From Saccharomonospora piscinae (GTDB lineage: Bacteria > Actinomycetota > Actinomycetes > Mycobacteriales > Pseudonocardiaceae), in contig NZ_VCEK01000003.1 in assembly GCF_005862235.1 (NCBI RefSeq), positions 579,501 to 643,500 of the forward strand: DNA of 64,000 nucleotides, written 5' to 3'. This document shows, piece after piece, positions 1 through 58,770 of this stretch. A program made the translations under genes and the position numbers. The stretch's first letter is position 1, and each line of letters begins with the position of its first letter. The notes under the pieces were generated by a model. The model made no database searches. It was not told the origin of the DNA and saw only the letters and a program-made list of their open reading frames with translations.

Positions 1-161
1 TGCGGACACGGCTCCCTAACCTGCGGACACGGCTCCCTAACCTGCGGACACGGCTCCCTAACCTGCGGACACGGCTCCCTAACCTGCGGACACGGCTCCC
101 TAACCTGCGGACACGGCTCCCTAACCTGCGGACACGGCTCCCTAACCTGCGGACACGGCTC
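1..161. repeat. 21-bp tandem repeat, seven identical copies plus a partial eighth
   Basis: Seven consecutive identical 21-bp units run from 1 to 147, each containing TGCGGACACGGCT followed by CCCTAACC, and an eighth diverges after 14 bases. On the minus strand the unit is GCCGTGTCCGCA plus a variable part, the module that recurs at about 8340, 42107 and 58658. The stop codon and last four codons of the acyltransferase gene lie inside the array. The array is cut by the window edge, so its full copy number is unknown. Confidence 0.97.
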
Positions 162-1524
162 GTTCCAGTTCGGTCAGGCCGTCCTCCAGGTACGTCAGGA
201 GGCGTTGCAGGTGGGGGACGCTGCGGCGGCAGCCCGTTATGCCCACGTCGAGGGTGTCGCCGCTGGTGGTGGTCGTGATGTTCAGCGCCAGCCCGTCGAG
301 CAGCACCGACGCGGGATAGATGCCGTCGAGGCCCGCGCCGTTCCAGTACAGGCGGCGACGCGGCCCCGGCACGGTGGAGATCACGATGTTGAACGCGGGC
401 CGGGTGTGCGTGACGAACCCGGGTACGGGTGAGGCCGCGAACGGTGCCACGTTCAGCGCCGACAGCAGCAGCGCCTGGGTCGGTGTGAGGTCGTGGAACA
501 GCCGCTTGCCCTCGGCCATCGAACGCCGGATGACCGCCAGCCGCGCGGCCGGGTCGGCGAGGTGGGTGCCGAGGTCGCACAGCAGGGCGCCGATGCGGTT
601 ACCGGACGACTCGCCCGGGCTCGCCCGCCGCCGCAGCGACACGGGCACCATCGCCACCAGCGGCGTGTTCGGCAGCGCCTGGCGGTCGAGCAGGTAGGTC
701 CGCAGCGCGGCGGAGCACATCGCGAGCAGGACGTCGTTGCGGGAGACTCCTGCCGCCGAGGCGACGGTGCCCAGCCGGTCGTGCTGCCAGGACTGCGCGG
801 CGAACCGGCGTGCTCCGCCGACGGGCACGTTGAACATCGTCTTCGGGGCCCGCATCGGCAGGGTGAGGCGCTGCTCGCGGAACGCCTCGGTGGCCACGCG
901 CGCGGCCAGCGGCGCCATGCCGGCCAGCTCGGTCACGGCGGTGCGGCCGAGGCGCACCAGCCTGCGCGGGTCGAACGGGGCCGCGTCACGCGCGGGCTGG
1001 GGACGGGAACGCCGAGTTCCCCACGGCGCGGGACAGTCGCGGGCGTCGGGGTCGTCGGTGAGCACGCCCTGCAGCTGCCGCAGCGCCGACACGCCGTCCA
1101 TCAGCGAGTGATGGATCTTGCTGTAGAGCGCGAACCGGCCGTCGGCGAGGCCTTCCACGAGGTGGATCTCCCACAGCGGCCGGTGCCGGTCGAGCGGGGT
1201 GCTGTGCCAGCGGGAGGTCAGTTCGAGCAGTTCGCGCACCCGGCCCGGGCGGGGCAGTGCGGAGTGCCGGAAGTGGTAGTGCAGGTCGAGATCCGCGTCG
1301 GCCACCCACGACAGGTACCCGCGGGTGCTCAGCGGGGTGGCCGGGCGCAGCCGGAACACGTCGCGCGCGCTGCTGGTGTCGAGCAGGTCCTGGCGCAGGG
1401 TCCTGAGGTAGTCGGGCCCCGCGCCCGGCGGCGGCGTGAACAACTGGAGCCCGCCGACGTGCATGGGATGTTCGCGGGTCTCGAGGGCGAGGAACATCGA
1501 GTCGGTCACCGGCATCAACGTCAT
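142..1524 (-). CDS. wax ester synthase / diacylglycerol acyltransferase (WS/DGAT)
   Basis: 460 aa. Enzymes of this family join acyl-CoA to diacylglycerol or a fatty alcohol, making storage triacylglycerol or wax ester at the membrane. The catalytic HHxxxDG motif is visible as HHSLMDG at residues 138-144, and the family block RPLWE lies at 115-119; the length fits the usual 450-480 aa. The start at MTLMPVTDSM matches the family's typical beginning and has a purine-rich stretch just upstream. The gene is divergent from the GST-fold reductase. The last four codons and TAG stop are formed by the 21-bp repeat, so the C-terminus may have been changed by repeat growth. Substrate choice (wax ester or triacylglycerol) cannot be told from sequence. 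Confidence 0.93.
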   Translation of the reverse strand: MTLMPVTDSMFLALETREHPMHVGGLQLFTPPPGAGPDYLRTLRQDLLDTSSARDVFRLRPATPLSTRGYLSWVADADLDLHYHFRHSALPRPGRVRELLELTSRWHSTPLDRHRPLWEIHLVEGLADGRFALYSKIHHSLMDGVSALRQLQGVLTDDPDARDCPAPWGTRRSRPQPARDAAPFDPRRLVRLGRTAVTELAGMAPLAARVATEAFREQRLTLPMRAPKTMFNVPVGGARRFAAQSWQHDRLGTVASAAGVSRNDVLLAMCSAALRTYLLDRQALPNTPLVAMVPVSLRRRASPGESSGNRIGALLCDLGTHLADPAARLAVIRRSMAEGKRLFHDLTPTQALLLSALNVAPFAASPVPGFVTHTRPAFNIVISTVPGPRRRLYWNGAGLDGIYPASVLLDGLALNITTTTSGDTLDVGITGCRRSVPHLQRLLTYLEDGLTELERAVSAG

Positions 1525-1610
1525 CAGTGCTTCGCCTTCCGCCGCGTCGCCGACGTCGTGATCACGCCGTTCCGGCGAGTGTACGGGCCTCGCGTACTAC
1601 CGTCGGTGCC

Positions 1611-2612
1611 ATGACGATCCCCACCGACCCGGAGACCGGCGAGTTCCACCGGGCTCCCAGCCACTTCGCCGCCCGCATCACGGCCGACGGCCGGGACGGA
1701 TGGCCGGTCGAGCCGGGCCGGTACCGGCTCGTGGTCAGCCGCGCGTGCCCGTGGGCCAGCCGCGCGCTGATCGTGCGCAGGCTGCTCGGCCTGGAGGCCG
1801 CGCTGCCGGTGGCCGTGGCCGACCCGATCCAGGACGAGCGCAGCTGGCGCTTCACCCTCGATCCGGGCGGTCGCGACCCGGTGCTGGGTATCCGTTTCCT
1901 CGCTGAGGCGTACGCGGAGGCCGACCCGGACTACGACGGCGGCATCAGCGTGCCCGCCATCGTGGACGTACCCAGCGGAAAGCTGGTCACCAACGACTTC
2001 GACCGCATCACACTCGATCTGTCGACGGAGTGGACCGCGCTGCGTCGCGACGGCGCGCCCGAGCTGTACCCGGAGGCGTTGCGCGACGAGATCGACGCCG
2101 TCAACGCGGCCGTGTACCGCGATGTCAACGCCGCCGTGTACGAGGCGGGGTTCGCCACCAGACAGGCGGCCTACGAGGAGGCGTTCGACCGGTTGTTCGC
2201 GAGGCTGGACGCGCTGGCCGACTCGCTGGAATACCGGCGCTACCTGGTGGGGGACACGATCACGGAGGCCGACGTCAGGCTGTTCACGACGCTGGTCCGG
2301 TTCGACGCCGTCTACCACGGCCACTTCAAGTGCAACCGGAACAAGCTCGCCGAGTCGCCGGTGCTGTGGGCCTATGCGCGGGACCTGTTCCAGACGCCCG
2401 GCTTCGGCGACACCGTCGACTTCGACCACATCAAGCGGCACTACTACGAGGTCCACGAGCAGATCAACCCCACCCGGATCGTGCCGAAGGGACCCGATCT
2501 GTCGCGTTGGGCCACGCCGCACGGCAGGCAGGCGCTGGGCGGGCGGCCGTTCGGCGACGGCACCCCGCCGGGCCCACCGCCTCCCGGGGAGACCCTGCCG
2601 CCGCAGTGGTGA
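1611..2612 (+). CDS. glutathionyl/mycothiol-type hydroquinone reductase (GST superfamily, YqjG/ECM4-like)
   Basis: 333 aa. Members of this Xi-class GST family reduce thiol-conjugated hydroquinones. The N-terminal thioredoxin-like half has the catalytic ACPWAS motif with Cys46, and the helical C-terminal half contains the family segment around YLVGDTITEADVRLF. The ATG at 1611 is chosen over the upstream in-frame TTG at 1527 because homologs begin near it and a TACCGT box ends eight bases before it, suggesting an almost leaderless mRNA. Most actinobacteria make mycothiol instead of glutathione, so the physiological thiol is probably mycothiol; that is an inference. Confidence 0.88.
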   Translation: MTIPTDPETGEFHRAPSHFAARITADGRDGWPVEPGRYRLVVSRACPWASRALIVRRLLGLEAALPVAVADPIQDERSWRFTLDPGGRDPVLGIRFLAEAYAEADPDYDGGISVPAIVDVPSGKLVTNDFDRITLDLSTEWTALRRDGAPELYPEALRDEIDAVNAAVYRDVNAAVYEAGFATRQAAYEEAFDRLFARLDALADSLEYRRYLVGDTITEADVRLFTTLVRFDAVYHGHFKCNRNKLAESPVLWAYARDLFQTPGFGDTVDFDHIKRHYYEVHEQINPTRIVPKGPDLSRWATPHGRQALGGRPFGDGTPPGPPPPGETLPPQW

Positions 2613-2621
2613 CGAAGATCG

Positions 2622-2627
2622 TATATT
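2622..2627 (+). promoter_or_regulatory. -10 box (TATATT) of a leaderless promoter
   Basis: TATATT ends seven bases before the GTG at 2634, exactly where a -10 box would sit if transcription began on the start codon. It lies just after the stop codon of the previous gene, so the ThDP enzyme gene can be transcribed separately. Confidence 0.6.
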
Positions 2628-2633
2628 CGCCGC

Positions 2634-4301
2634 GTGTCGGTGACCGGTGCGCACAGCCTCGTCAAGGCCCTGACCGAACTCGGCGTGGAGGTCGCGTTCG
2701 GTCTCCCCGGCGCGCACACGCTCCCGCTGTGGGACGCCCTCATGGGCAGCGGGATCCGGCTGATCGGGGTCCGGCACGAGCAGGCGGCGGCACACGCGGC
2801 CGACGGGTACGCGCGCACCACGGGCTCGCTGGGCGTGGCGCTGGTGGCCACCGGGCCCGGGGCGGTCAACACACTGGGCGCGCTCGGCGAGGCACGCGCC
2901 GCGGCCTCCCCGGTGCTGGTGATCGCCACGGACGTGCCGTCGGCACCGTGCGTGCCCGCGACCGTGCGGATCTCGCCGTACGAGGCCGGTGACCAGCACA
3001 CCCTGTTCGCGCCGCTGTCCAAGGCCACGTTCACCGTGGGACACGCGGACGCCATCGCGGCCGTGGTGCGGGAGTCAGCCGCGGTCGCGACGCGCCCGCA
3101 GAGCGGGCCGGTCTACGTGGGAATCCCGGCGGACTTCCTCGCCGAGCCGGTGGCTGAGCCGGAGCCGGGCGGCTCCGCCCCGGCAGCGACGTCGGCCGCG
3201 CCGGTGTGTCCGGCGCCGGTGGAGGAAGAACTCGACCGGGCGCGGGCGATGCTGCTGGCCGCGCGGCGCCCGCTCGTCTGGGCGGGTGGCGGAGCACTGC
3301 GCTCGGGAGCCGGTGCGGTGCTGGGGGAACTGGCCGAACGACTCGCCGCACCCATCATCACGACGCTGGCCGCGCGCGGCCTCGTCCCGCCCGACCATCC
3401 GTGCCTGGCGTCGAATCCCGTACACACCCCCGAGGTCGGCGGGCTGTGGGACGAGGCGGACGTGGTGCTCGCCGTGGGCACCGACTTCGACGGCCTGATG
3501 ACCCAGAACTGGCGGATGCCGCAGCCGCCGGAACTCATCGCGGTGAACGTCGACGCCGACGACGCGGCGAGGCACTACCCGCCCGACGTGTTACTGCTCG
3601 GCGACGCGACCGACGTCGTCACGCGGCTCTCGGACGGTGTCGAGCCGCAGGCGGGTCTGGACGAGCTGACCCGCAGGCTGGACGACATCGAGGTACGGGT
3701 GCGCCGCCGCGTCCGCCAGGAGGAACCGCACGCGGCCGAGTTCCTTTCGGCGTTGAAGGAGACGCTGCCGGACGGCGCGGTGCTGGTGCCGGACCTGTGT
3801 GTGGCCGGGTACTGGATCGGCGGGTTCCACCGCGTTTCGGGTCCTCGCCAGCTCGCGTGTCCGATGGGTGCCGGGGCGGCCGGGTTCGCGCTTCCCGCCG
3901 CGATCGGCATCGCGGCGGGCGGCACCACGCGCGCCGTCTGCGTGACGGGCGACGGTGGGTTCCTGTCCGGTTGCGCGGAGCTGGCCACCGCCGTCCAGGA
4001 ATCGCTCGCGGTCACCGTGGTGATCGTGGACGACGGCGGCTACGGCATGCTCCGGTACGGCCAGGCACACTCCGGTTTCGAGCCCCACGGCGTCGACCTC
4101 GTCACGCCCGACTTCGTGGGGCTGGCGAGGTCGTTCGGCGTCGACGCCGACCGTGTCGACGGCTTCGGCAGGGCGTTCCGGCGCCGGTTGCGCGAGTTCA
4201 GCCGCTCCACCGAGCCGAACGTGCTCGCGGTCGGCGCCGAGCTGCGCCCGCCGCTCAACACCTCGCCGCGCTGGTACCGCAACCCGGCCGCCCCGTGGTA
4301 G
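2634..4301 (+). CDS. thiamine-diphosphate-dependent enzyme, acetolactate-synthase-like
   Basis: 555 aa with the three-domain layout of ThDP enzymes: an N-terminal PYR domain with the catalytic glutamate (VRHEQ, Glu49), a central Rossmann-like domain at about 190-340, and a C-terminal PP domain with the ThDP/Mg motif beginning GDGGF near residue 439. No FAD-specific acetolactate synthase hallmark or regulatory subunit gene is nearby, so it is probably not the biosynthetic IlvB; a 2-oxo acid decarboxylase or another carboligase is possible. The GTG start has no Shine-Dalgarno sequence but sits seven bases after TATATT. The neighbours do not indicate the substrate. Confidence 0.85.
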   Translation: MSVTGAHSLVKALTELGVEVAFGLPGAHTLPLWDALMGSGIRLIGVRHEQAAAHAADGYARTTGSLGVALVATGPGAVNTLGALGEARAAASPVLVIATDVPSAPCVPATVRISPYEAGDQHTLFAPLSKATFTVGHADAIAAVVRESAAVATRPQSGPVYVGIPADFLAEPVAEPEPGGSAPAATSAAPVCPAPVEEELDRARAMLLAARRPLVWAGGGALRSGAGAVLGELAERLAAPIITTLAARGLVPPDHPCLASNPVHTPEVGGLWDEADVVLAVGTDFDGLMTQNWRMPQPPELIAVNVDADDAARHYPPDVLLLGDATDVVTRLSDGVEPQAGLDELTRRLDDIEVRVRRRVRQEEPHAAEFLSALKETLPDGAVLVPDLCVAGYWIGGFHRVSGPRQLACPMGAGAAGFALPAAIGIAAGGTTRAVCVTGDGGFLSGCAELATAVQESLAVTVVIVDDGGYGMLRYGQAHSGFEPHGVDLVTPDFVGLARSFGVDADRVDGFGRAFRRRLREFSRSTEPNVLAVGAELRPPLNTSPRWYRNPAAPW

Positions 4302-4336
4302 GCAGGAGCTCGCCAGCCACGCTCGAAGGGACACGC

Positions 4337-4771
4337 ATGACCGGAACGGCCGAACGCATCCTGCGGGAGTTCGACACCGTCGCGGTGGTCGGGCTCAGCC
4401 GCGATCCCGCCAAGGCGGCGCACTCGGTGCCCGCCGATCTGCGCCGCGCGGGGTTCCGGATCGTCCCGGTGAACCCGGTGGCCGAGCCGGGCAGCGTGCT
4501 GCTGGGGGAGCGGGTCCACCGCGATCTGGCCGAGGCCGCCGAACACACCCCCGTGCCGATCGAGGTGGTCACCGTGTTCCGGCCGTCGCCCGAGGCGGGC
4601 GGGATCGCCCGCGACGCCGCGCGGGTGGGTGTGCGGGCACTGTGGTTGCAGCAGGACATCGTCTCCGCCGAGGCACGCGCGGTGGCCGAGGAGGCCGGCC
4701 TGCTCTACGTGGAGGACGACTGCATGGCGGTGGTGCGGGCCCGGCTCGGGATCGAGAAACCAGCGGCGTGA
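4337..4771 (+). CDS. CoA-binding domain protein (YccU-like)
   Basis: 144 aa, a single Rossmann-type CoA_binding_2 domain. The beginning, VAVVGLSRDPAKAAH at about 14-28, is the nucleotide-binding loop, and the middle RIVPVNP and the EDDCM near the end are typical of the family. The in-frame reading continues upstream without a stop, but ATG 4337 follows a GAAGGG Shine-Dalgarno at 4325-4330 and matches the usual start. It lies 35 bp after the ThDP enzyme and may be cotranscribed. Function in cells is not known; some members bind CoA. Confidence 0.9.
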   Translation: MTGTAERILREFDTVAVVGLSRDPAKAAHSVPADLRRAGFRIVPVNPVAEPGSVLLGERVHRDLAEAAEHTPVPIEVVTVFRPSPEAGGIARDAARVGVRALWLQQDIVSAEARAVAEEAGLLYVEDDCMAVVRARLGIEKPAA

Positions 4772-4853
4772 GTCCGCTCACGTCGCTACCATGCGAGGTA
4801 TGCGACACCGACATTGACTGAGCTCGCGGCGCGCTGCGGCCCGTTCGGAGCTG

Positions 4854-6020
4854 GTGCTTCTCCGGCGCCTCCGGGTGTGGGCGCTGCTGTCGGACACCGT
4901 GCCGTTCTACCCGCTGTACGCGCTGTTGTTCGCCGACACCGGTCTCTCGGACGCCGGGATCTCGTGGCTGTTCGTCGTCTGGTCGGTGACGAGCGTGCTC
5001 GCGGAGGTGCCCAGCGGGGTACTGGCGGACCGCTTCTCGCGCCGAGGCGCGATGGCCCTGGGCGGGCTGGCCCAGGCCGCCGGGTGCGTGTTGTGGACAG
5101 CGTGGCCGGGCGCCCTCGCGTTCGCACTGGGGTTCGTGTTGTGGGGCTGCGGCGGTGCGCTCGTGTTCGGGTCGCTGGAGGCGCTGCTGCACGACGGCCT
5201 GACGGCGGCGGGGCAGCCCGAGCGCTTCGGCCGGGTCTACGGCCAGCTCGACGCACTGCAACTCGCCGCCAACGTGCCCGCCGCCGTCGCGGCGACCACG
5301 CTGTTCGGCCTCGGCGGATTCGCGCTCGTGGGATGGGCCAGTGTCGGCGTCTGTGTGGCCTCGGCGCTCGTGGCCGCGCGGCTGCCCGAGCGCAGGCTCC
5401 CGCCGGACGGTGACGAGGCCGACGGTCCCGCGACGTATCTGGCCACGTTGCGCTCCGGTGCCGCCGAGGCGCTCCGCAACCCCGCCGTGCGGGGCGCTGT
5501 GGTGGCCGTCGCGCTGCTGTCGTCGCTGGACGCGCTGGAGGAGTACTTCGGCCTGCTCGCCCTCGACTGGGGAGTGCCGACCCAGTGGGTCCCGCTCGCG
5601 GTGGTGGGCATCCCGCTCGCCGGGGCTCTCGGCTCGGTGAGCGCGGGTCGGCTCGCCTCGTGGCGGCTGAGCACGCTGACCGGGCTCTTCGGCGCGGCCG
5701 TCGCGGTGTTCGGAGTGGCGGGACTGCTGGCGACGCCGGTGGGTCTGTTCGGTGTGGCCGTCTTCTACGCCGGGTACCGGGCGGTGCTGGTGGTCGCGAA
5801 CGCCCGGGTGCAGGAGCGGGTGCGCGGCCGAGCCAGGGCCACCGTGACGTCGTTCGTCGGACTCGGCACCGAACTGGCATGCCTGCTGGTCTACGGTGCC
5901 TGGGCGGTCGGGCAGACACCCGCGTTCACCGTGCTCGCGCTGCTGGTGGCGGTGGCGTTGCCCCTCGGCCTGCGTCGGCGGCCCTCGGCCACACCCCGCG
6001 GACTCACGACCGCGGCATGA
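4854..6020 (+). CDS. MFS transporter
   Basis: About 388 aa with roughly 12 hydrophobic segments. The loop after the second helix, GVLADRFSRRGAM, is the MFS motif A (GxLaDrxgrr). The start is uncertain: GTG 4854 has a GGAG close upstream with short spacing, and the only codons before it down to an in-frame TGA at 4815 include a CTG. A five-codon reading frame beginning ATG 4800 ends at that TGA. The substrate cannot be inferred; such small MFS proteins are often exporters. Confidence 0.87.
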   Translation: MLLRRLRVWALLSDTVPFYPLYALLFADTGLSDAGISWLFVVWSVTSVLAEVPSGVLADRFSRRGAMALGGLAQAAGCVLWTAWPGALAFALGFVLWGCGGALVFGSLEALLHDGLTAAGQPERFGRVYGQLDALQLAANVPAAVAATTLFGLGGFALVGWASVGVCVASALVAARLPERRLPPDGDEADGPATYLATLRSGAAEALRNPAVRGAVVAVALLSSLDALEEYFGLLALDWGVPTQWVPLAVVGIPLAGALGSVSAGRLASWRLSTLTGLFGAAVAVFGVAGLLATPVGLFGVAVFYAGYRAVLVVANARVQERVRGRARATVTSFVGLGTELACLLVYGAWAVGQTPAFTVLALLVAVALPLGLRRRPSATPRGLTTAA

Positions 6021-6486
6021 CTCCGGTCACACCACGCAACCTTGTCGATTCCTGCTGTCGCATTCGATCAGTGAATGGCGACGGTGCGCATCCTGCTGGC
6101 TTCGAATCAGTGGCATTGTCCACGGTTTCGGCGGTGATTGATTACGAGCCGTCAGCTATTTCGCCACATGAACGACCCTGTCGTTCCCACTGATGTGATC
6201 GATTTGGAGATCAAATTTTCGCTCAGGGTGAACGACGTCATGGTTCGCCATCGTCGCTGGTGACGGCGCCGTAAGTCCGGGGGCTAAACCGGCGCAAGGG
6301 AAGGCAAACGCTGTTGATCTGTGTTCCTGGCCACCCATTAGTGATTTTGACAGTGACCGTTTCGTAATCTCGCACAGGCTTCGCGTTGACTGCACCTTTC
6401 CCCCGAGGTGATCGCGAGGCAGCACCCGCCGGTCGAGCCCCCCCGACAGGACCGACGGGACGTCCGCGAGAAGGAGATCCACGCAC
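6021..6486 (+). other. 466-bp leader region without a gene, possible structured RNA
   Basis: No reading frame here looks real. The stretch 6050-6400 is visibly less GC-rich than its surroundings. It contains a hairpin whose arms are GCGCCG (6266-6271) and CGGCGC (6290-6295) around a G-rich loop, and two TTGACA/TTGACT hexamers at 6347 and 6386 without a good -10 partner. In many actinobacteria genes for cell-wall lytic enzymes carry a c-di-AMP riboswitch (ydaO type) here; I cannot match the consensus securely by eye. Confidence 0.4.
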
Positions 6487-7335
6487 GTGGCAGACCACAC
6501 GATGTTGGAGCGCGTGAAGAAGATCATCGCTCAACAGGCCCCGACCCGAAACCTCCCGACCCACGTTTCCTCGCTCGGCCGCTCCGTGCGCGACGGCGCC
6601 CGCAGCTACGCCTCGATCGGTGTGCTGGCGCTGTTCGTGGCCGGTGTCGCGAGCCCCGCCGTGATGGCGGGCACGGACGACGAAGCGGCACGGACCGTGT
6701 CGGCGCAGCCCGCCGCGGTCGCCGAGCAGCAGAACGGTTCCGGCGATTCCGCCCAGGACAACGGCAGTGACAAGCCGGCAGGGGGCGGTGCTCCCGCTCC
6801 CAGGAGCGACGACCCCGACGCCCACGAGGACCCCGCCGGCCAGGGCGGTGACTCGGCTCAGTCCGACAAGCAGCCCGAAGAGCAGCCCGCCGAGCAGCCC
6901 GCGCCCCCGCCCGCGGAGCCCGCCGCCCACGACGCCGGAGGCGGGGGCGCCCAGCCCGCCGCGCCGGCCGAGCCCGTGGACCAGCTCGACGGCTGGATCC
7001 GTTCGGCGATCGGTGTCATGCAGGACAACGGCATCCCGGTGTCCGAAGCGGACATCGGCAGCATCAGGACCGTCATCGAGAAGGAGTCCAGCGGTGACCC
7101 GCGGGCCATCAACCTGTGGGACATCAACGCCCAGCGCGGGACGCCGTCCAAGGGTCTGATGCAGACGATCGACTCGACGTTCAACGCCCACAAGCTGCCC
7201 GGCTACGAGGACGTGTACGACCCGGTGTCGAACATCATCGCCGGTACCCGGTACACCCTGAGCCGCTACGGCAGCTTCGCCGAGCACCCTGGGCTCGCCC
7301 AGATGGCGGGCGGCGGCGGCTACCGCGGCTACTGA
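6487..7335 (+). CDS. secreted lytic transglycosylase, SLT-like
   Basis: 282 aa. An N-terminal cytoplasmic patch is followed by a membrane or signal segment (residues about 39-58, ending ASPAVMAG), a Pro/Ala/Gln/Asp-rich linker to about 160, and a C-terminal goose-lysozyme-like domain. The catalytic glutamate is probably in the IEKESSGDP block (about 198-206), followed by GLMQTIDSTF. The protein would cut glycan strands of peptidoglycan outside the membrane. GTG 6487 has AAGGAG ten bases upstream. It is followed by another secreted wall enzyme, the M15 peptidase, which has its own promoter. Confidence 0.9.
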   Translation: MADHTMLERVKKIIAQQAPTRNLPTHVSSLGRSVRDGARSYASIGVLALFVAGVASPAVMAGTDDEAARTVSAQPAAVAEQQNGSGDSAQDNGSDKPAGGGAPAPRSDDPDAHEDPAGQGGDSAQSDKQPEEQPAEQPAPPPAEPAAHDAGGGGAQPAAPAEPVDQLDGWIRSAIGVMQDNGIPVSEADIGSIRTVIEKESSGDPRAINLWDINAQRGTPSKGLMQTIDSTFNAHKLPGYEDVYDPVSNIIAGTRYTLSRYGSFAEHPGLAQMAGGGGYRGY

Positions 7336-7469
7336 TCCCCGTCCGCGCTCGAGCGGTCGTCGCGTGTCGAGACCCGGCCGAACACCGGCCGGGTCTCGCG
7401 CGTCCGGGGGCGGCTCGGTAGCGGCGGGGTAGCTCCTGCGCTGTTTGGTGGAAAATCTCCGATTCAGCA

Positions 7470-7498
7470 TTGACTTTGCGAGATGATCACCGTAACGA
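7470..7498 (+). promoter_or_regulatory. promoter of the M15 peptidase gene
   Basis: TTGACT at 7470-7475 and TAACGA at 7493-7498 are separated by 17 bp, a good match to the housekeeping sigma factor consensus, 54 bp upstream of the ATG. Confidence 0.6.
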
Positions 7499-7551
7499 TG
7501 CCGGGCGTGCGACGAACCCTGCACGACGCACCGACATCTCGCGGAGGCGCA

Positions 7552-8292: not shown

Positions 8293-8298
8293 CACCCT

Positions 8299-8339
8299 GG
8301 CTGCGGACCGCAGGGCACCGCGCCCTGCGGTCCGCAGCC
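8299..8339. terminator. perfect 18-bp stem hairpin between convergent genes
   Basis: Arms 8299-8316 and 8322-8339 are perfectly complementary with a 5-nt loop ACCGC. It begins seven bases after the stop of the M15 peptidase gene and lies between convergent genes. There is no U-tract, as is common in actinobacterial terminators. Confidence 0.8.
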
Positions 8340-8402
8340 GCCGTGTCCGCAGGCTATGTAGCCGTGTCCGCAGTGTGCGTAGCCGTGTCCGCAGTCTGTG
8401 GA
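8340..8402. repeat. three 21-bp modules of the dispersed GCCGTGTCCGCA repeat
   Basis: Units at 8340-8360, 8361-8381 and 8382-8402 each start with GCCGTGTCCGCA; the following bases differ (GGCTAT, GTGTGC, GTCTGT) and the first two end in GTA. They directly follow the hairpin at 8299-8339 and separate the M15 peptidase gene from the convergent gene at 8423. Confidence 0.93.
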
Positions 8403-8422
8403 CGGTGGTCCCCGGCGCCACG

Positions 8423-9469: not shown

Positions 9470-9519
9470 AGGTCATCGCTCCTATCCGGGCTCGGTGGCC
9501 TGTCAGGTTAGCGACATCC

Positions 9520-9740
9520 GCTGCCCGCCTCGTCGGTTGCGCCGGTCGGGTGTGATTGCCACACCCATACCGCTCGTGCTGCCACACTGCTCGCCTCTCC
9601 CTCGCACGGCCCTGGTGACGTCCGGCGTGGTTGGTGAGGGACCGTGGTGGCCGAGGTGCGGCGGAGCAGCCTACGCGTGCCGCCGAGGACGATTCCCCGC
9701 GAGGACATGCCACGAAAGGGAGCGAGGCAATCAATCCGGC
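9520..9740. other. apparently non-coding stretch
   Basis: Reading frames here overlap each other on both strands and none has a convincing start, family motif or codon pattern. It lies between the unrecognised gene and the phosphotransferase remnant and is probably decayed DNA from the same event. Confidence 0.4.
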
Positions 9741-14804: not shown

Positions 14805-16244
14805 ATGTGCGCACACCCCGCGGGGCCCCGTCATGCGGAGGTTTACCCGCACGTGGACCAGGCGGGCTTTCCACCGTCCACTTCGGATGAGCTGGATCGG
14901 CTCTACCCGAAGGTCTGGCCACGCAACACCTACCGCGCCCCCGACGGCGTCGTCCGGATCGCGGGTGTGGACGTGCGGGAACTCGCCCGGACCTACGGCA
15001 CACCGCTGTTCGTCATCGACGAGGTCGACTTCAAGGCCCGGTGCGCCGAGTACGCCGAGGCGTTCGAGGACCCGGCACTGGTCCACTACGCGGGCAAGGC
15101 GTTTCTCAGCACCGAGGTCGCGCGGTGGGTCGCGGCCCAGGGGCTCAGCCTGGACGTGTGCAGCGGCGGCGAGCTGGCCGTGGCGCAGCGCGCGCAGTTC
15201 CCCCCGGAGCGCATCACGTTCCACGGCAACAACAAGTCGCTGCCCGAGCTGGAGGAGGCCGTCGAGGCGGGAGTCGGCACGGTGGTGCTCGACTCGTTCC
15301 ACGAGATCGCCCGGCTGGCCGAGATCGCCGAGCGGCACGGCGTCGTCCAGGCCGTGCTCGTCAGGGTGACGGTGGGGGTGGAGGCGCACACCCACGAGTT
15401 CATCGCTACCGCGCACGAGGACCAGAAGTTCGGGTTCTCGCTGGCCGCGGGCGATGCGGCGGAGGCCGTGCGCCGCGTGCTGAACAGCCCGTCGCTGCGG
15501 CTCGTCGGGCTGCACAGCCACATCGGCTCCCAGATCTTCGACACCGACGGGTTCGAGGTCGCCGCGCGCCGGGTGATCGGCCTGCTCGCCGACCTCCGTA
15601 AGGAGCACGGTCCCGAGCTGCTCGATCAGCTGTCCGTCGTGGATCTCGGTGGTGGCTTCGGTATCTCGTACACCGACCGGGACAACCCGCCGCCGCCCGC
15701 GCAGATGGTCACCCAGATCAGGGAGATCGTGCGGAAGGAGTGTTCGTTCGCCGACCTGCCGGTGCCCCGCATCGCGGGTGAGCCGGGCCGGGCCATCGCG
15801 GGCCCCGGCACGGTGACGCTCTACGAGGTGGGCACCACGAAGGACGTCGCGCTGGGCGAGGACACGGCGCGACGCTACGTGAGCGTGGACGGCGGGATGA
15901 GCGACAACCTCCGCACCGCGCTGTACGACGCGGCCTACGACTGCCGCCTGGTGTCGCGCGCCAGTGACGACGGTCAGCCTGGCGAGGTGAGTGCGGTGCT
16001 GTCCCGCGTCGTGGGAAAGCACTGTGAGTCAGGTGACATCGTGGTCCGCGACTGCTGGTTGCCCGACACCCTGGCGCCGGGGGACCTGCTCGCCGTCGCG
16101 GCGACAGGTGCCTACTGCTATTCCATGGCGAGCAACTACAACAGGCAGCCGAGGCCCGCGGTGGTCGCGGTGCGCAACGGGAACCACCGGCTGCTGCTGA
16201 GGCGGGAGACGAACGAGGACATGTTCCGACTGGAGGTGTCGTGA
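14805..16244 (+). CDS. lysA: diaminopimelate decarboxylase
   Basis: 479 aa, PLP enzyme of fold type III that makes lysine from meso-diaminopimelate. The PLP lysine is Lys98 in VHYAGKAFL; the phosphate-binding region DLGGGFG, GEPGRAI and the C-terminal [12 protein letters not shown] are visible. ATG 14805 has GGAGGA at 14791-14796. The N-terminal extension of about 50 residues is normal in actinobacteria. The stop codon overlaps the first of three hom GTG starts, and the end of lysA is the source sequence of the repeat found there. Confidence 0.97.
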
Positions 16245-16364
16245 GCGACGATCGTGGGAGCGCTCGCGGGCACCGACCGGGTGCGGGTGTCCCGCAGGAT
16301 GCTGGAGGTGTCGTGAGCGACGATCGTGTCCCGCAAGATGCTGGAGGTGTCGTGAGCGAGGATC
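16230..16364 (+). repeat. triplicated ribosome-binding site and start codon of hom
   Basis: CTGGAGGTGTCGTGAGCGA with its following GATC occurs three times, starting at 16230, 16302 and 16341. The last two copies are part of a 39-bp direct repeat (16287-16325 and 16326-16364) with two mismatches. Each copy has GGAGG and an in-frame GTG (16241, 16313, 16352); the first is the end of lysA. Confidence 0.95.
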
Positions 16365-22044: not shown

Positions 22045-22250
22045 GCCGCGTGACCGGGGTCGCCAGGTCGCTCGGGCTGAGCACGGTCGGCGGCATCGGG
22101 GGCACAGCGCTCGCGAAGCAGGCGGGAATACGCGCTCTGCCGGGTGCGTTGCGAGTGACGCCGGGGATTCTGGCACACTTGTTCCGCTGACGTCCGGCTC
22201 CGGTTCACCTCGCTGTTCGCGGGGACCCGGCGCTACGAGGAGAGGACACC

Positions 22251-37306: not shown

Positions 37307-37930
37307 TTAGCCATCCACGGCGAGAGCCGCGCCGAAGCCGATCAGAGTCGTGCCGGTGGCCACGTCCAGCCCCCTGCGTACGCGCCTGCGTCCCAGCCAG
37401 GCGCGTACGGAGTGGACGAACCCGACCAGGAGCAGCAACCACACCGCGCCCAGCACGGCGACGGTGTAGGCCAGCAGCAGGGTGTCGGTGAGCGAGTTGT
37501 GCGCGGGGTCGATGAACTGCGGCAGCACGGACAGGTAGAGCGCGAGCACCTTCGGGTTCGTGACGTTCGAGAGGAACCCCTCGCGGAACCGCCGGAAACC
37601 CATGACCTGCGTTCCGGTGTGGTCGAGGCTCGCGTAGTCGCCCCGACGGGCCGACCGGAGTGCCTGCACGCCGAGGTAGCACAGGTAGACCACACCGAGC
37701 CAGCGCAGCGTGTGGAACACCGGCTGCGACCCGACGATCACCGTGCCCAGCCCGAACGCGACCGCGGTGCCCTGCACGACGTTGCCCGCCGCGATTCCCG
37801 CCGTCGCCAGGAGACCGCCGCGGACACCGCCCGCGAACGAGTTCTTGAGCGTCACGACGGTGTCGGGTCCGGGAGCGAGGACCACCAACACCACCAGAAC
37901 GAGGTAACTGCCGTACGTACTCCAGGTCAC
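37307..37930 (-). CDS. LysE/RhtB-family amino acid exporter
   Basis: 207 aa, about six membrane helices. The family signature APGPDTVVTLKNSFAGG follows the first helix and FLSNVTNPKVLALYLSVLPQF is in the middle. It would export an amino acid or related compound; the substrate is not evident. GTG 37930 is close behind TACGCT on the minus strand. It is convergent with murA with 6 bp between stops. Confidence 0.93.
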   Translation of the reverse strand: MTWSTYGSYLVLVVLVVLAPGPDTVVTLKNSFAGGVRGGLLATAGIAAGNVVQGTAVAFGLGTVIVGSQPVFHTLRWLGVVYLCYLGVQALRSARRGDYASLDHTGTQVMGFRRFREGFLSNVTNPKVLALYLSVLPQFIDPAHNSLTDTLLLAYTVAVLGAVWLLLLVGFVHSVRAWLGRRRVRRGLDVATGTTLIGFGAALAVDG

Positions 37931-37965
37931 GGAACGCCAGCGTAACCCGTGGTCCGCCGGGTCGG

Positions 37966-41334: not shown

Positions 41335-42108
41335 ATGGGTGACTACGAACACGTCCTCTCCAAGCGCGAGGACGACACCGTCACGATCACCATGAACCGG
41401 CCGGGGCGGCGCAACTCGCTGTCCGAGCCGCACCTGCGCGAGTTGCTGGAGGCGTTCACCGAGGCAGGTGAGTCGGACGCCACCGGGATCGTGCTCGCGG
41501 GTGCCGGGCCGGTGTTCTCGGCGGGACACGACTTCGCCGACGTCGCCGAGCGGGACCTGATGGACGTACGGGCGCTGCTGCGGTTGTGTACCGACCTGAT
41601 GGGCACGATGCAGTCGGTTCCGCAGGTCGTGCTGGCCCGGGTCCACGGCCTCGCGACGGCGGCCGGGTGCCAGCTCGTGGCGTCCTGCGACCTCGCGGTG
41701 GCCGCGGAGTCGGCCGGGTTCGCGCTTCCGGGCGGCAAGGGTGGCTGGTTCTGCCACACGCCCGCCGTGCCGGTGGCGCGGGCGGTGGGCCGCAAGCGGC
41801 TGATGGAGCTCGCGCTCACCGGCGACGCCGTCGACGCCGCCACCGCGCTCGACTGGGGGCTGGTCAACCGGGTCGTGCCTGACGACGAGCTCGACGACGC
41901 GGTTGCCGCGCTCCTGGCCCGCGCCACCAGGGGTAGCCGGGCGTCCAAGGCACTCGGCAAGCAGACCCTGTACGCCCAGCTCGACCGCCCCGAACAGGAC
42001 GCCTACGCGATCGCGTTGGAGGTGATGGCGTCGGCGGCCCAGCTCCCGGGAGCGAGGGAGGGCATGGCGGCGTTTCTGGAGAAGCGCGCCCCCGACTGGC
42101 CGGACTGA
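41335..42108 (+). CDS. enoyl-CoA hydratase/isomerase family protein
   Basis: 257 aa crotonase fold. The oxyanion-hole regions are GPVFSAGHDFADV and VHGLATAAGCQLVASCDLAV. The second catalytic glutamate of true hydratases is not obvious: the region after it reads ESAGFALPGGKGGWF, as in the ECHDC3-like branch, so hydratase activity is uncertain. The ATG is placed by the -10 spacing and family start. The TGA stop is part of the inverted repeat that follows. Confidence 0.9.
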   Translation: MGDYEHVLSKREDDTVTITMNRPGRRNSLSEPHLRELLEAFTEAGESDATGIVLAGAGPVFSAGHDFADVAERDLMDVRALLRLCTDLMGTMQSVPQVVLARVHGLATAAGCQLVASCDLAVAAESAGFALPGGKGGWFCHTPAVPVARAVGRKRLMELALTGDAVDAATALDWGLVNRVVPDDELDDAVAALLARATRGSRASKALGKQTLYAQLDRPEQDAYAIALEVMASAAQLPGAREGMAAFLEKRAPDWPD

Positions 42109-42208
42109 CACCGTGTCCGCAAGTTACGTAGCCGTGTCCGCACCGCGCGATGCGGACACGGCTACGCAGGCTGCGGACACGGCTACGCAGGCTGCGGACA
42201 CGGTGTCA
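42106..42208. repeat. inverted array of 21-bp modules filling a convergent intergenic space
   Basis: Two rightward modules (from 42110) and three leftward modules (to 42205) of the GCCGTGTCCGCA family face each other around CCGCGCGA. The outer arms TGACACCGTGTCCGCA (42106-42121) and TGCGGACACGGTGTCA (42193-42208) are perfect complements and include the stop codons of both flanking genes. The transcript from either side can fold into a long hairpin. Confidence 0.95.
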
Positions 42209-42748
42209 GGGGGTGCGGTTGGCGCGTTCCCGGAGCAGGAGCAGCGTGTACGCGGCGATGGACTGGGCATCGGTCACCTCGCCGGTGGCGATCATCGACT
42301 CCAGCTCGGCGCGGTCGAACCACGCCGAGCGCATGTCCTGCTCCTCGGGCTCCCGGTCCGGCTCGCCCTCGGTGAGACCTGTGGCGAGAAAGACCCGGCC
42401 ACGCTGGCTCGACAGGCCAGGGGCGACGTCGAGCAGCCCCAACTCCACCAGCGAGGCCGCCACGAGCCCCGTCTCCTCCCGCAGCTCCCGCGCCGCCAGC
42501 CGGTCGGCGGGCAGTTCGGCGCGCTCCGGCGCGGTGCCCTGCGGGAACTCCCACCGGCGCAGTCCCAGCGGGTAGCGGTACTGCTCGACGAGCCGGACCC
42601 GGCCCGCCTCGAGCGGGATGACGAGCGCGTAGTCCGGCTTGTCGACCACGCCGTAGACGCCGTCGGAGCCGTCGGCGCGGCGGATGTCGTCCTCGCGCAC
42701 GGTCATCCAGTTGTTCGCGTACACCTCGCGGGAACCGAGTCGCTGCAT
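42206..42748 (-). CDS. NUDIX hydrolase, ADP-ribose pyrophosphatase-like
   Basis: 180 aa. The Nudix helix is AARELREETGLVA, preceded by GTAPERAELPADRLA; the preceding WEFPQG is typical of ADP-ribose pyrophosphatases. It would hydrolyse a nucleoside diphosphate linked to another group. CACAAT on the minus strand lies eight bases before the ATG. The stop codon lies in the inverted repeat shared with the convergent enoyl-CoA hydratase gene. Confidence 0.92.
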   Translation of the reverse strand: MQRLGSREVYANNWMTVREDDIRRADGSDGVYGVVDKPDYALVIPLEAGRVRLVEQYRYPLGLRRWEFPQGTAPERAELPADRLAARELREETGLVAASLVELGLLDVAPGLSSQRGRVFLATGLTEGEPDREPEEQDMRSAWFDRAELESMIATGEVTDAQSIAAYTLLLLRERANRTP

Positions 42749-42851: not shown

Positions 42852-43511
42852 GTGCGCTTAGTAATCGCTCGGTGTCAGGTGGACTACGCGGGCCGCCTGA
42901 CGGCTCACCTGCCCATGGCCACGCGGCTGTTGCTCGTCAAGGCCGACGGTTCGGTATCGGTACACTCCGACGACCGCGCCTACAAGCCGCTGAACTGGAT
43001 GAGCCCGCCGTGCTGGCTGATCGAGGACGGCAATCTGTGGATCGTGGAGAACAAGGCGGGCGAGAAACTCGTCGTCACGATCGAGCAGGTGATCGACGAG
43101 ATCGAGCACGATCTCGGCGCCGAGCCCGGACTGGTCAAGGACGGGGTCGAGTCGCACCTGCAGGAGTTGCTCGCCGAGCACATCACCACGCTGGGGCAGG
43201 GCTACACGCTCGTGCGGCGGGAGTACCCGACGGCCATCGGGCCGGTCGACATCCTCGCGCGCGACGCCGAGGGCGCCTCCGTGGCGGTGGAGATCAAGCG
43301 CCGCGGCGAGATCGACGGGGTCGAGCAGCTCACGCGGTATCTAGAGTTGCTGAATCGTGATCCGTTGCTGACCCCGGTGCAGGGGGTGTTCGCGGCCCAG
43401 CAGATCAAGCCGCAGGCCCGCACACTGGCCGAGGACCGGGGCATCCGGTGCGTCACGCTGGACTACGACAGCCTCCGGGGCATCGAGAGCACGGACCTCC
43501 GGTTGTTCTGA
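42852..43511 (+). CDS. nucS: mismatch-specific endonuclease NucS/EndoMS
   Basis: 219 aa. N-terminal dimerisation/DNA-binding domain (about 1-110) and C-terminal RecB-like nuclease domain with PD-(D/E)xK residues in VDILARD and VAVEIKRRG. In actinobacteria without MutS-MutL this enzyme carries out non-canonical mismatch repair by cutting both strands at mismatches, working with the sliding clamp. The last residues DLRLF resemble the C-terminal clamp-binding peptide. Confidence 0.96.
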
Positions 43512-50354: not shown

Positions 50355-50398
50355 TCCACGCGCGGTCGGCGCGGGGCCCGGCCGCTACCGTGGAGGGC

Positions 50399-50689: not shown

Positions 50690-50696
50690 GCCCGCC

Positions 50697-51251: not shown

Positions 51252-51277
51252 GTCCGTCGAATCTAGAGCCTCTGCCC

Positions 51278-51283
51278 GACAAT
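51278..51283 (+). promoter_or_regulatory. -10 box (GACAAT) of a leaderless promoter
   Basis: GACAAT ends seven bases before the ATG at 51290. Confidence 0.55.
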
Positions 51284-51289
51284 GGGGGG

Positions 51290-52036: not shown

Positions 52037-52245
52037 GCCGCCCGCGGGCGCTGCCTCCGACACGGTGTCGTAGGACGTGACCTAGGTAACGCCGCCGGTC
52101 GCGGGCGGTGGACTCGCCCCTGGCAACGCCACCACCTGCGGCTTTCCGTCGCCCGCGCCGCCGCAGGTCGGAGCGGGTGGCGGTGCGCTCGCCCGTCGGG
52201 ACGTGATCTGTGCTCCCGGTGCGCGAGCGGCGGAGGGCACCGGGA

Positions 52246-52251
52246 TACGAT
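52246..52251 (+). promoter_or_regulatory. -10 box (TACGAT) of ctaD
   Basis: TACGAT lies 72 bp upstream of the ctaD start at the end of a 286-bp gap that otherwise contains only G/C-rich inverted sequence and no gene. Confidence 0.45.
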
Positions 52252-52322
52252 CCCTCATGCCAACGTGGGTCCCCGCCCGTGGCGCAGCAAGATTCGCGGG
52301 GTAGCGAGTGCAGGAGGCTTCA

Positions 52323-56169
<3,847 letters not shown>

Positions 56170-56178
56170 GCGGGCGGC

Positions 56179-56547
56179 TCAGTTCGCCTTCCACACCACG
56201 TACGCCTTGTCGGCGTCGGTGGTCATGGCCTCGACGAACGTGTCGTGATCGAACCCGGGCAGCATCTGCAACCGCTCGATCAGCGCGTCGGCGGCCGGAT
56301 CTCCGCTGGGTACGGCCGTGCCGGTGCCGTCGGCGGCGGCCAGCATGAGGAAGACGTCCTCTTTCCAGGGCCCCTCGGGGATCACCCGTACCACCACGGC
56401 GGCCAGGTCGGACCAGGTGACGGATTCCTCGCTGCCGTCGGCCAGCAGGCGACGAACGCCCGTGTCGTCGACGCTGACGGAACGGGAACGGGCGCTGGAC
56501 GAGTCGGGGGGCAACGAGATCTCCCTCGGGGTCGGGTTGGCGTCCAC
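56179..56547 (-). CDS. conserved hypothetical protein
   Basis: 122 aa, no family recognised. Starts polar and acidic, then a beta-rich region (SVSVDDTGVRRLLADG, ESVTWSDLAAVVVRVIPEG, DVFLMLAAADGTGTAVP) reminiscent of small PH-like folds, then a helix ending in VVWKAN. GTG 56547 has GGAAG close upstream. Convergent with the pth2-like gene. Confidence 0.65.
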   Translation of the reverse strand: MDANPTPREISLPPDSSSARSRSVSVDDTGVRRLLADGSEESVTWSDLAAVVVRVIPEGPWKEDVFLMLAAADGTGTAVPSGDPAADALIERLQMLPGFDHDTFVEAMTTDADKAYVVWKAN

Positions 56548-56570
56548 CGTACTTCCTGCTCTCGGCGAGC

Positions 56571-58625
56571 TCAGGCGGGGGCGGCGGCGTCGAGTCGGCG
56601 CAGCGCCTCGCGAACGACCTCGGTCTTCTGCGTAGGCCACAGCGGCGGCAGCGACGCACGCAGGAACCCGCCGTAGCGGGCGGTCGCCAGGCGGGAGTCG
56701 AGGACGGCCACCACCCCGCGGTCGCTCGTCGCGCGGTGCAACCGGCCCACGCCCTGCGCCAGCAGCAGCGCGGCGTGGGTGGCGGCCACGGTGAGGAAGC
56801 CGTTGCCGCCGCGCGCTTCCACCGCCCGCTGGCGGGCCGACGCCACCGGGTCGTCCGGCCGGGGGAAGGGGAGCCGGTCCACGATCACCAGTTGCAGTGC
56901 CGCGCCGGGGACGTCGACGCCCTGCCACAGCGACAGCGTGCCGAACAGGCAGGTGCGCGGGTCCTCGGCGAACTTGTTCACCAGCAGCGACGTGGCGTCG
57001 TCGCCCTGGCACAGGATCGGGTGTGTCACGCGGTCGCGCAGTTCCTCGGTGGCCTGCTTGGCCGCGCGCATGGAGGAGAACAGTCCGAGCGTGCGCCCGC
57101 CCGCCGCGTCGATCAGTTCGGCGATCTCGTCGAGCGTGGGCGCCGCGAGGCCGTCGCGGCCGGGCGGTGGCAGGTGCCTGGCGAGGTAGAGGATGCCGTT
57201 GCGCCGGTAGTCGAACGGCGAACCCACGTCGAGCCCGCTCCAGTGCGGTTCCGTGTCGGCATCCGACGGAGGTGCTTTCTCCGTGGCCGTCCCCTCGGCG
57301 CGGTCGGTCGGGCGCGGCTCCGGCGGGAGTCCCCACTGGCGGGCGAGCGTGTCGAAGGTGCCGCCGAGGGCCAGTGTCGCGGACGTGAGCACCGTGGTGC
57401 TGCTGCCGAACACACGCTCACGCAGCAGTCCGCCGACCCCGAGCGGGGCGACGTGCAGCGCGGGCGGTCGCGGGTTGGCCGACTGCCGATCGCCCGAGCG
57501 CCACACGACGTCCTTGCGCTCGCCGGGGTCGTCCTCGAACGCCTCCAGCAGTCGCACCGCCGTGTCGTGGACGTCGTCGAGCGCGGAGCGGGCGAGCTTG
57601 CGTTTGGTGGCCTCCTCCGCGTCCTCCCGCCGGTCGGACCCGAGCGCGGCCAGGCACGCGTGCGCGGCGTCGCGCACCGCCGCCACCGCGCCGCCCAGCG
57701 CGTCGGGCAACGTGTCGAGCCTGCCCTGCGGTGCGTCCTCCAGCATCAGCGACAGGCCCTCGCCCGTCTCCAGCAACCGGTCGGCGATGTCGGCGTCGAT
57801 CAGCCGCCCGCACCGTCGCGCCGCGGCGGACACCATCGCGGACGACAGGTCCGCCGTGGCCGCCGACGTGACCCGGTCGACCAGCTCGTGTGCCTCGTCG
57901 ATGATCGTCACGTCGTGCTCGGGCAGCACCTGGTAGTCCTGCAGCGCGTTGATGGCCAGCAGCGCGTGGTTGGTGACCACGATGCTCGCCCTGCCCGCGT
58001 CGGCGCGCGCGTGCTCGGCGAAGCAGTCGTCGCCCACCGGGCAGCGAGCCGCGCCCAGGCACTCCTTCGCGGTCACCGACACCTGACGCCACGCCTGTTC
58101 GGACACGCCGGGCACCAGCTCGTCCCGGTCGCCCGTCTCGGTGTCCGACGACCACTCGTGCAGCCGCTTCACCTCGCGGCCGACGCGGGAGATCGCGTAC
58201 TGGTCGAACAGACCGGTGTCCTCCGGCTCGTCCTCGATCCCGCCGTGGACGCGGTGCAGGCACAGATAGTTGCGCCTGCCCTTGAGGATCGCGAACGTCG
58301 GTTCCTCGCCGAGTGGCTGTTTCAGCGCCCTGGCGAGGCGCGGCAGGTCCCGGTCGACGAGCTGGCGTTGCAGCGCGATCGTCGCCGTGGAGACCACGAC
58401 GGTGGTGCCCGACTCGACGGCGTGCCGGAGGGCGGGCACGAGGTAGGCCAGCGACTTCCCGGTTCCGGTGCCCGCCTGGACAGCGAGGTGCTCGCCGGTG
58501 CGGATCGCGCGGTCGACGGCGTCGGCCATGGCCACCTGACCGTCGCGCTCGGTACCGCCGACGGCCTCGACGGCGTGGGAGAGGAGTTCGCGGACGCTGG
58601 GCAGATCCGTGCGGGCACCGGTCAC
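56571..58625 (-). CDS. ATP-dependent DNA helicase, DinG/XPD-like
   Basis: 684 aa. Walker A AGTGTGKSLAYLVPA (about 52-66) and DEAH in IIDEAHELVDR; C-terminal helicase block GVGRLHRATSDRGVVAVLD. Cysteines around CLHRVHGG and ECLGAARCPVGDDC are placed to bind an iron-sulfur cluster as in XPD. It would unwind 5'-tailed or repair-related DNA. GTG 58625 is chosen; the open frame continues 28 codons upstream into the 21-bp repeat, giving a false Arg/Thr/Leu-rich extension. Confidence 0.93.
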   Translation of the reverse strand: MTGARTDLPSVRELLSHAVEAVGGTERDGQVAMADAVDRAIRTGEHLAVQAGTGTGKSLAYLVPALRHAVESGTTVVVSTATIALQRQLVDRDLPRLARALKQPLGEEPTFAILKGRRNYLCLHRVHGGIEDEPEDTGLFDQYAISRVGREVKRLHEWSSDTETGDRDELVPGVSEQAWRQVSVTAKECLGAARCPVGDDCFAEHARADAGRASIVVTNHALLAINALQDYQVLPEHDVTIIDEAHELVDRVTSAATADLSSAMVSAAARRCGRLIDADIADRLLETGEGLSLMLEDAPQGRLDTLPDALGGAVAAVRDAAHACLAALGSDRREDAEEATKRKLARSALDDVHDTAVRLLEAFEDDPGERKDVVWRSGDRQSANPRPPALHVAPLGVGGLLRERVFGSSTTVLTSATLALGGTFDTLARQWGLPPEPRPTDRAEGTATEKAPPSDADTEPHWSGLDVGSPFDYRRNGILYLARHLPPPGRDGLAAPTLDEIAELIDAAGGRTLGLFSSMRAAKQATEELRDRVTHPILCQGDDATSLLVNKFAEDPRTCLFGTLSLWQGVDVPGAALQLVIVDRLPFPRPDDPVASARQRAVEARGGNGFLTVAATHAALLLAQGVGRLHRATSDRGVVAVLDSRLATARYGGFLRASLPPLWPTQKTEVVREALRRLDAAAPA

Positions 58626-58657
58626 GCTCCGACGGTACCGCGCGTCCCCATCCCGTC

Positions 58658-58770
58658 GTGTCCGCAGGTTAGGTAGCCGTGTCCGCACTTCCCGTAGCCG
58701 TGTCCGCACCGCACGCTGAGAACACGGCTACGCGGGCTGCGGACACGGCTACGCGGGCTGCGGACACGGT
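58658..58770. repeat. inverted array of 21-bp modules between pfkB-like and helicase genes
   Basis: Three rightward modules (from 58658, spaced 21 bp) and two to three leftward modules (to 58769) face each other; one leftward copy has AGAACACGG instead of GCGGACACGG. The array ends four bases before the stop of the leftward kinase gene, and its other end is 33 bp before the helicase start. Confidence 0.93.

Follow-up and report, generated by a model that had tools for sequence, protein, structure and literature searches.

Lineage-specific 21-bp tandem repeats at gene ends in Saccharomonospora piscinae and its relatives

Repeat arrays in the window

The window is a 64,000-nucleotide stretch of Saccharomonospora piscinae (G000:C5:579501-643500), taken from a genome of 4.9 Mb in 11 contigs (G000), and the element considered here is a tandem repeat with a 21-bp unit found at gene ends. 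An earlier sequence-only reading had described four loci with 21-bp modules, and a pattern search bears this out: allowing one mismatch, GCCGTGTCCGCA is matched 21 times in the window, where 1.87 matches are expected and no shuffled sequence out of 100 attains that count. All matches are confined to these four sites, with units spaced at 21 bp. Each unit consists of the core CGTGTCCGCA, six variable bases (N6) and, mostly, GTA. The arrays and the features beside them are as follows.

1-159, minus strand: array 1, eight head-to-tail units with the identical linker GGTTAGGGA
142-1524, minus strand: wax ester synthase/DGAT-like gene (PF03007, PF06974; our own gene caller)
8299-8339, no strand: palindrome beside array 2, 18-bp stem, from the fold of 8293-8422
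8340-8393, plus strand: array 2, three one-way units in a convergent gap
42110-42204, both strands: array 3, two plus and three minus units with an 8-nt loop CCGCGCGA, filling a convergent gap
58655-58770, both strands: array 4, three plus and three minus units, one minus unit degenerate
58774-59709, minus strand: PfkB-type carbohydrate kinase gene (PF00294; start approximate, our own gene caller)

As had been claimed, all four arrays lie at gene ends: array 1 overlaps a stop codon, arrays 2 and 3 occupy convergent gaps, and array 4 lies downstream of the kinase gene (minus strand), 5 nt beyond its stop. That every array touches or adjoins a stop, as had been proposed, applies to arrays 1, 3 and 4 and only loosely to array 2, which is 49 and 29 nt away from its two flanking stops; of the two arrays thought to fill a convergent gap, array 3 does so. 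The TAG stop of the wax ester synthase/DGAT-like gene falls within a linker of array 1. The usual GTA after the six variable bases holds in general, with GGA in its place in 7/7 linkers of array 1. As the first unit begins at base 1, array 1 may extend past the window edge.

The predicted folds differ among the arrays. Array 3 (42106-42208) folds at -76.6 kcal/mol with z -11.3, both stop codons being placed in the outer stem, and array 4 (58650-58775, minus strand) reaches z -9.4. The variable stretches in the arms of array 3 (AGTTAC and GCCTGC) are not complementary; they are nearly so in the ortholog of this array in the congener G144. Array 1 folded alone yields z +0.48. The strong fold of the gap with array 2 is due to the separate 18-bp palindrome beside the array, which constitutes a conventional terminator-like hairpin, distinct from the repeat.

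Arrays in the genome

Arrays were collected from 1.264 Mb (400 kb from the start of each of contigs C3, C4 and C5, and the window), with genes called by a home-made codon-usage caller whose starts are approximate and some of whose calls are perhaps wrong. An array was defined by the 10-mer core CGTGTCCGCA with up to two mismatches, at least two copies having 0-1 mismatch and one being exact. Each of the 45 arrays in the sample has between 2 and 9 units, with 21-bp spacing between 142 of the 148 neighbouring direct units; in the whole genome, exact 12-mer pairs 21 bp apart number 198 (91 forward and 107 reverse; reversed control 0). Fifteen arrays run plus-then-minus, one minus-then-plus, two are mixed and 27 are one-way. 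N6 is followed by GTA in 113 of 132 direct linkers and by GGA in 12 (7 of these in array 1), and N6 itself occurs in 46 recurring kinds (commonest GCCTGC, 26) with a pyrimidine at position 3 in 130 and at position 4 in 131. The loop at plus-minus junctions is 8 nt long, and 6 of the 11 counted are TCGYGCGG or its reverse complement.

Outside arrays, exact single 10-mer cores number 7 in the sampled sequence (3 for the reversed core), and cores with one mismatch 153 (122 for the reversed core); as these numbers are close to the control, the core is almost restricted to arrays. Contigs C3, C4 and C5 begin inside arrays and N runs adjoin two arrays (C5 near 107 and 328390), so the repeats probably break assemblies.

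Position and orientation at gene ends

Four of the 45 arrays touch sequence ends and were omitted from the context counts. Convergent gaps hold 16 of the remaining 41, tandem gaps 23 and divergent gaps 2, i.e., 39 of the 41 arrays with both neighbours called are in tandem or convergent gaps, some of them overlapping gene ends by about 20-70 bp. Against a background of 212 convergent, 740 tandem and 214 divergent gene pairs, arrays occupy 16 of the convergent and 2 of the divergent ones (Fisher p 0.0005). In 21 of 23 tandem gaps, the array lies closer to the stop than to the start of the following gene. In 31 of 39 arrays (binomial p 0.0003), the core points away from the stop beside it, namely in 17 of 23 tandem and 14 of 16 convergent gaps (nearer stop used).

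The distance to the stop is also narrowly distributed. The first core in the direction of the gene begins 3, 4 or 5 nt downstream of the stop for 18 of the 41 ends, the median being 4. A simulation in which 28 arrays, none overlapping a called gene, were each slid freely within their own gap placed the first core at most 5 nt from a stop on 8.6 +/- 1.8 of 35 sides, with a maximum of 16 in 5000 runs; 19 sides were observed. Immediately 5' of the core, 10 of 32 near edges have CTGA-CAC, CTGA-CGC or CTGA-AGC, and a C follows the stop at 22 of the 32. The stop is TGA at 30 of 32 near edges and at 961 of 1169 overall, a difference that is not strong. Three of 23 arrays leave at most 20 bp of other gap sequence, a length not exceeded in 40% of all tandem gaps.

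The sequence-only reading had proposed tabulating copies against stop codons and orientation, random placement being what would count against a link with gene ends. In these 1.264 of 4.9 Mb, placement relative to gene ends is non-random. The strand rule and the distance of 3-5 nt from the stop go beyond what that reading contained, as does the sequence replacement at orthologous gaps described below.

Replacement and conservation in congeners

Among 150 genomes of the family, two, both from genus g1, carry the exact unit pair; with up to three mismatches allowed, it is found in 8 of the 12 genomes of the genus, with no hits for the controls. It also occurs in 11 stretches of one metagenome-assembled genome, DX1.bin91 (from a named collection from which near relatives were perhaps left out). 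At orthologous places the repeat can have a different sequence. The gap at 42109-42205 holds an array of the CGTGTCCGCA type in G000, G024, G154, G090 and G144 and a worn form in G062, a different 21-bp array of the CCCGCGAGTCGACACCCGGTG type in G150, G151 and G152 (lag-21 scores of 26, 26 and 29 out of 30), and yet another array, CCGCGAGTTGCCCTGCCCCGT, in G153. The gap at 58626-58773 contains arrays in all seven comparable genomes, six of the first type and, in G152, one of the CGACTCGCGG (CGCGAGTCG) type. Unit joints vary as well: mostly GTAGC in G000 and G024 (the latter also with GCAGC), and mostly GTACG, GCACG or similar in G090, G062, G144, G111 and G128. The two array types look like one unit with a shifted constant half, since a CGTGTCCGCGAGTTGAGTACG unit is present in L201, from a genome of another genus (g21), and units combining CGTGTCCGCG and CGCGAGTTG parts occur in G128, of the window's genus (L203).

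Conservation of position was assessed over the window region in ten other genomes of the genus. Where G000 has an array, 7 of 9 convergent and 7 of 7 tandem ortholog cells are positive; where it has none, the positive cells are 4 of 34 convergent, 2 of 319 tandem and 0 of 37 divergent, and control lags yield 3 of 406 cells in total. The 16 cells of the former group derive from two gaps, the 8293-8422 gap having no usable ortholog. At four further G000 arrays (see below), three of the four ortholog gaps that are array-negative, chosen for folding because of a visible stem, hold an ordinary hairpin in place of the array (z -5.2, -1.9 and -3.2); the fourth is 40 bp long.

The orientation recurs in 77-80 kb from each of the ten genus genomes (arrays mostly within called genes dropped), where 27 of 29 arrays, among them 20 of 22 one-way arrays, run in the direction of the gene beside them; facing arrays in one gap are counted twice and shared gaps recur across species, so these counts are not independent. 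Among lags 12-33, lag 21 marks 9 of 55 convergent, 16 of 261 tandem and 2 of 133 divergent gaps in G000, 5 of 29, 5 of 145 and 0 of 48 in the CGTGTCCGCA-type congeners except G024, and 6 of 37, 5 of 122 and 0 of 47 in the CGCGAGTCG-type clade.

The sole other marked lag is 30, with 3 convergent and 7 tandem gaps in G000 and 4 and 3 in the CGCGAGTCG-type clade. It corresponds to a second gene-end repeat class with palindromic units (e.g., GCAGTGAAGGTGGCCTTCGCGGC), mostly beside stop codons, at sites in G000 (C4 near 38, 39, 158, 177, 217, 357 and 380 kb; C3 near 268 kb) and in the G150-G152 regions, and may be a parallel terminator-like class. Tandem arrays with a 17-bp period (TGGGTCAGTGTTCGCCG type) are also found at gene ends in G151 (region 37868-37942) and G152 (region 43086-43148).

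Related arrays in other genera

Of 150 genomes of the family, 20 (from 10 of 46 genera) have pairs of CGCGAGTYG at 21 bp, the reversed control appearing once in each of 18, so that most weak positives are at control level; seven genomes, in g4, g15 and g16, stand clearly above it with 30 to 327 pairs. Class-wide, the same search yields one pair in 1 of 148 genomes, and the control is found in 4. Thirty loci were read. Arrays of at least three units follow stops in g4, g15, g16, g21 (L200, L201), g26 (L190) and g44 (L204), and those of g4 and g15 are oriented as in G000 (e.g., L191, L196, L208, L209 and L212). L185, L194, L199 and L214 resemble chance pairs, L192 forms no chain, and L211 and L213 duplicate L195 and L197. 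A de novo periodicity survey of 20 stretches from other genera (5 under 15 kb dropped, 15 used) gave lag 21 in 1 of 32 convergent gaps, equal to lags 14, 18 and 27; the generality within the family therefore does not rest on this sample.

No stretch of viral_contigs carries the exact pattern CGTGTCCGCAN6GTANNCGTGTCCGCA. Mostly narrow multi-term queries of the open-licence literature returned no published description of the arrays, by which their absence from print is not established; a search of RepRanger (PMC12306157) for six terms found no mention of Saccharomonospora, tandem or RAYT.

A proposed role at the 3' ends of genes

The arrays are a lineage-specific, concertedly changing class of repeats at gene ends. 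Their siting, polarity and hairpins indicate a function at gene ends; the simplest would be that inverted arrays terminate transcription bidirectionally and protect the 3' end. We tentatively prefer, at somewhat less than even chances, the interpretation that these are gene-end arrays with a termination or 3'-end hairpin role in the inverted form, whose units are homogenized within a genome. The stability of the hairpins is one support: with 110 nt folded after each stop, a stable G+C-rich hairpin (z below -2) is predicted for all 23 gene ends with inverted arrays (mean z -6.3 for 15 convergent and -7.3 for 8 tandem ends), compared with means of -3.2 for array-free convergent ends (80 of 104 folded) and -0.9 for tandem ones (80 of 291 folded).

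Such a system could work as follows. Tandem 21-bp units would begin a few bases past the stop codon and be read in the direction of the gene. A second, opposite arm would be contributed by the end of the facing gene or, in tandem gaps, by a return arm, and the two-arm transcript could then fold into a long, bulged hairpin, which most likely halts transcription arriving from either side and protects the 3' end of the mRNA. A one-way array might represent a gene end with a single arm. In this scheme the arrays most likely end or insulate transcription, as hairpins when inverted. Exchange between gene ends, by gene conversion or template switching, might homogenize the units within each genome, as a consequence of which the sequence would be particular to each lineage, with the 21-bp period and, partly, the position retained. 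The spread or conversion of modules suggested by the sequence-only reading is compatible with units that are genome-specific and replaced at shared places. While position, polarity, period, hairpin potential and sequence replacement belong to the observations, what we infer is the termination of transcription, the protection of 3' ends and the exchange route.

Several results weigh against this role. One-way arrays, which make up 27 of the 45, fold no better than other gene ends: in convergent gaps their mean z is -2.6 (co-directional, 6) and -1.6 (opposed, 5), and in tandem gaps -1.1 (co-directional, 10) and -0.5 (opposed, 4). The formation of hairpins, an earlier claim that stands for the inverted arrays, is therefore not general and cannot account for the one-way ones; as these are polar yet weakly folding, another cause is needed, either a factor that reads the repeat or copying anchored at the stop codon. 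No T run after the hairpin was seen by eye in 42001-42300 and 58561-58860. The 42109-42205 gap is merely 11 and 16 bp long and free of any array in G111 and G128, so the array is dispensable there. At four further G000 arrays, 1 of 5 usable ortholog cells is positive; since the 14 of 16 positive cells come from two gaps, conservation of position is partial, and full positional conservation is rejected. In g16, the strand rule is reversed, with minus-then-plus arrays (L186-L189, L205 and L207; L206 mixed). Avoidance of promoters and of gaps inside operons can also be explained by purifying selection on a selfish repeat.

Intrinsic terminators with T runs are said to be scarce in high-GC actinomycetes. 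The arrays resemble such terminators in their site after stops and in the very stable hairpins of the inverted forms; they differ in that their modules are common to the whole genome, in the lack of a T run in the two stretches read and in one-way forms that fold weakly. Termination in high-GC actinomycetes is poorly settled, and a repeat tied to stop codons makes the question testable gene by gene. The class combines hairpin and non-hairpin forms with lineage dialects at orthologous places, and it constitutes a case of concerted change over many dispersed bacterial loci.

Alternative explanations

A possible, though rather unlikely, alternative is that the arrays are selfish or neutral gene-end repeats, whose copying from one gene end to another would rely on stop-codon microhomology (outer edge CTGACRC-CGTGTCC). 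Both the polarity and the distance of 3 nt would then come free, and copies would survive only where they are harmless, which agrees with their siting away from promoters. The CTGA-bearing near edges fit, as all 10 have the core exactly 3 nt after the stop, and the edge at C4:8890 has CTGACAC before the core though the stop of the gene lies 13 nt upstream. Local slippage, as in the eight identical units of array 1, and the turnover of arrays between species could also be expected. The presence of the 42109-42205 and 58626-58773 arrays in 14 of 16 ortholog cells, with the sequence replaced in one clade, is however a long persistence for a neutral insert, and no mobile gene accompanies the arrays across the genus (Y1_Tnp alone was sought).

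It is also conceivable, if unlikely, that a family of actinomycetes employs polar 21-bp arrays 3-5 nt after stops as dedicated gene-end punctuation read by a putative sequence-specific factor, word and reader drifting together into dialects. Related species would then hold different words at the same gene ends, with the two-turn spacing fixed and the strand rule constant within each lineage. Along the same lines, though we regard it as quite improbable, the units might be sites for a putative sequence-specific DNA-binding protein that blocks RNA polymerase or organizes DNA directionally, protein and repeat drifting together; units two helical turns apart would place all sites on one face of the DNA. 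This would account for the exactness of the spacing between direct neighbours, for lags 19, 20, 22 and 23 giving 0-1 gap per class in G000 and the two larger congener groups, for a period retained despite changed sequence, and for one-way arrays that are polar (as in the congeners) though poorly folding. Tandem duplication, on the other hand, maintains a period without any protein, opposed units have a centre-to-centre distance of 20 instead of 21 bp (12-mers starting at 42131 and 42151), and the 30-bp class occupies gene ends too.

The arrays resemble known repeats, i.e., bacterial interspersed mosaic elements (BIME) or repetitive extragenic palindromic (REP) sequences and paired uptake sequences, yet fail a defining test of each. 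Iterons and variable-number tandem repeats (VNTR) are arranged head-to-tail, with a period of about 21 bp and local changes in copy number, all of which is also seen here; the present arrays differ in occupying many sites per genome and in being bound to stop codons and the gene strand. The sequence-only reading had recognized neither a REP nor a CRISPR (clustered regularly interspaced short palindromic repeats) type, and it holds for both. CRISPR is rejected on the 9 nt between 12-mers and the recurring N6 (46 kinds in 132 linkers), in place of unique spacers of ~30 nt (cas genes were not sought).

REP and BIME elements have foldable inverted modules and a species-specific sequence. REPs are extragenic and frequent between convergent genes, with attenuation and gyrase binding among the reported roles (PMC1525189). 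The present arrays share the extragenic siting at gene ends and in convergent gaps, the inverted modules and the lineage-specific sequence. They differ in their non-palindromic 21-mer, which is repeated head-to-tail with a fixed period, strand rule and near-fixed distance to the stop, and in folding strongly only when inverted. A search for PF01797 in the 12 genus genomes found the Y1 transposase family (Y1_Tnp) in 4, G000 among them (a match at Y1 family level only); it is absent from the array-bearing G024, G154, G090, G062 and G144, of which one is a draft with 91% completeness. The non-palindromic unit and the array-bearing genomes without Y1 transposase argue against membership in elements driven by REP-associated tyrosine transposases (RAYT), and the usual RAYT-driven REP/BIME explanation, already disfavoured, is highly improbable. 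The least probable explanation by our estimate is that of DNA uptake sequences paired at gene ends as in Neisseriaceae, for which dialects specific to lineages and an association of inverted pairs with terminators are reported (PMC3630211). The short core, the dialects and the inverted pairs agree with it; the tandem arrays with few or no single copies beyond chance speak against it.

Other observations in the window

At Rfam gathering scores, a tRNA and the L31-Actinobacteria ribosomal protein leader (RF03158) alone were matched in the window, the arrays yielding no match. The leader lies at 22194-22234, directly before a short called gene at 22250. In 16215-16364, CTGGAGGTGTCGTGAGCG occurs in three copies with a GGAGG resembling a ribosome-binding site and a GTG, two of them as a 39-bp tandem; since the spacings between copies are multiples of three, these are possibly duplicated translation starts.

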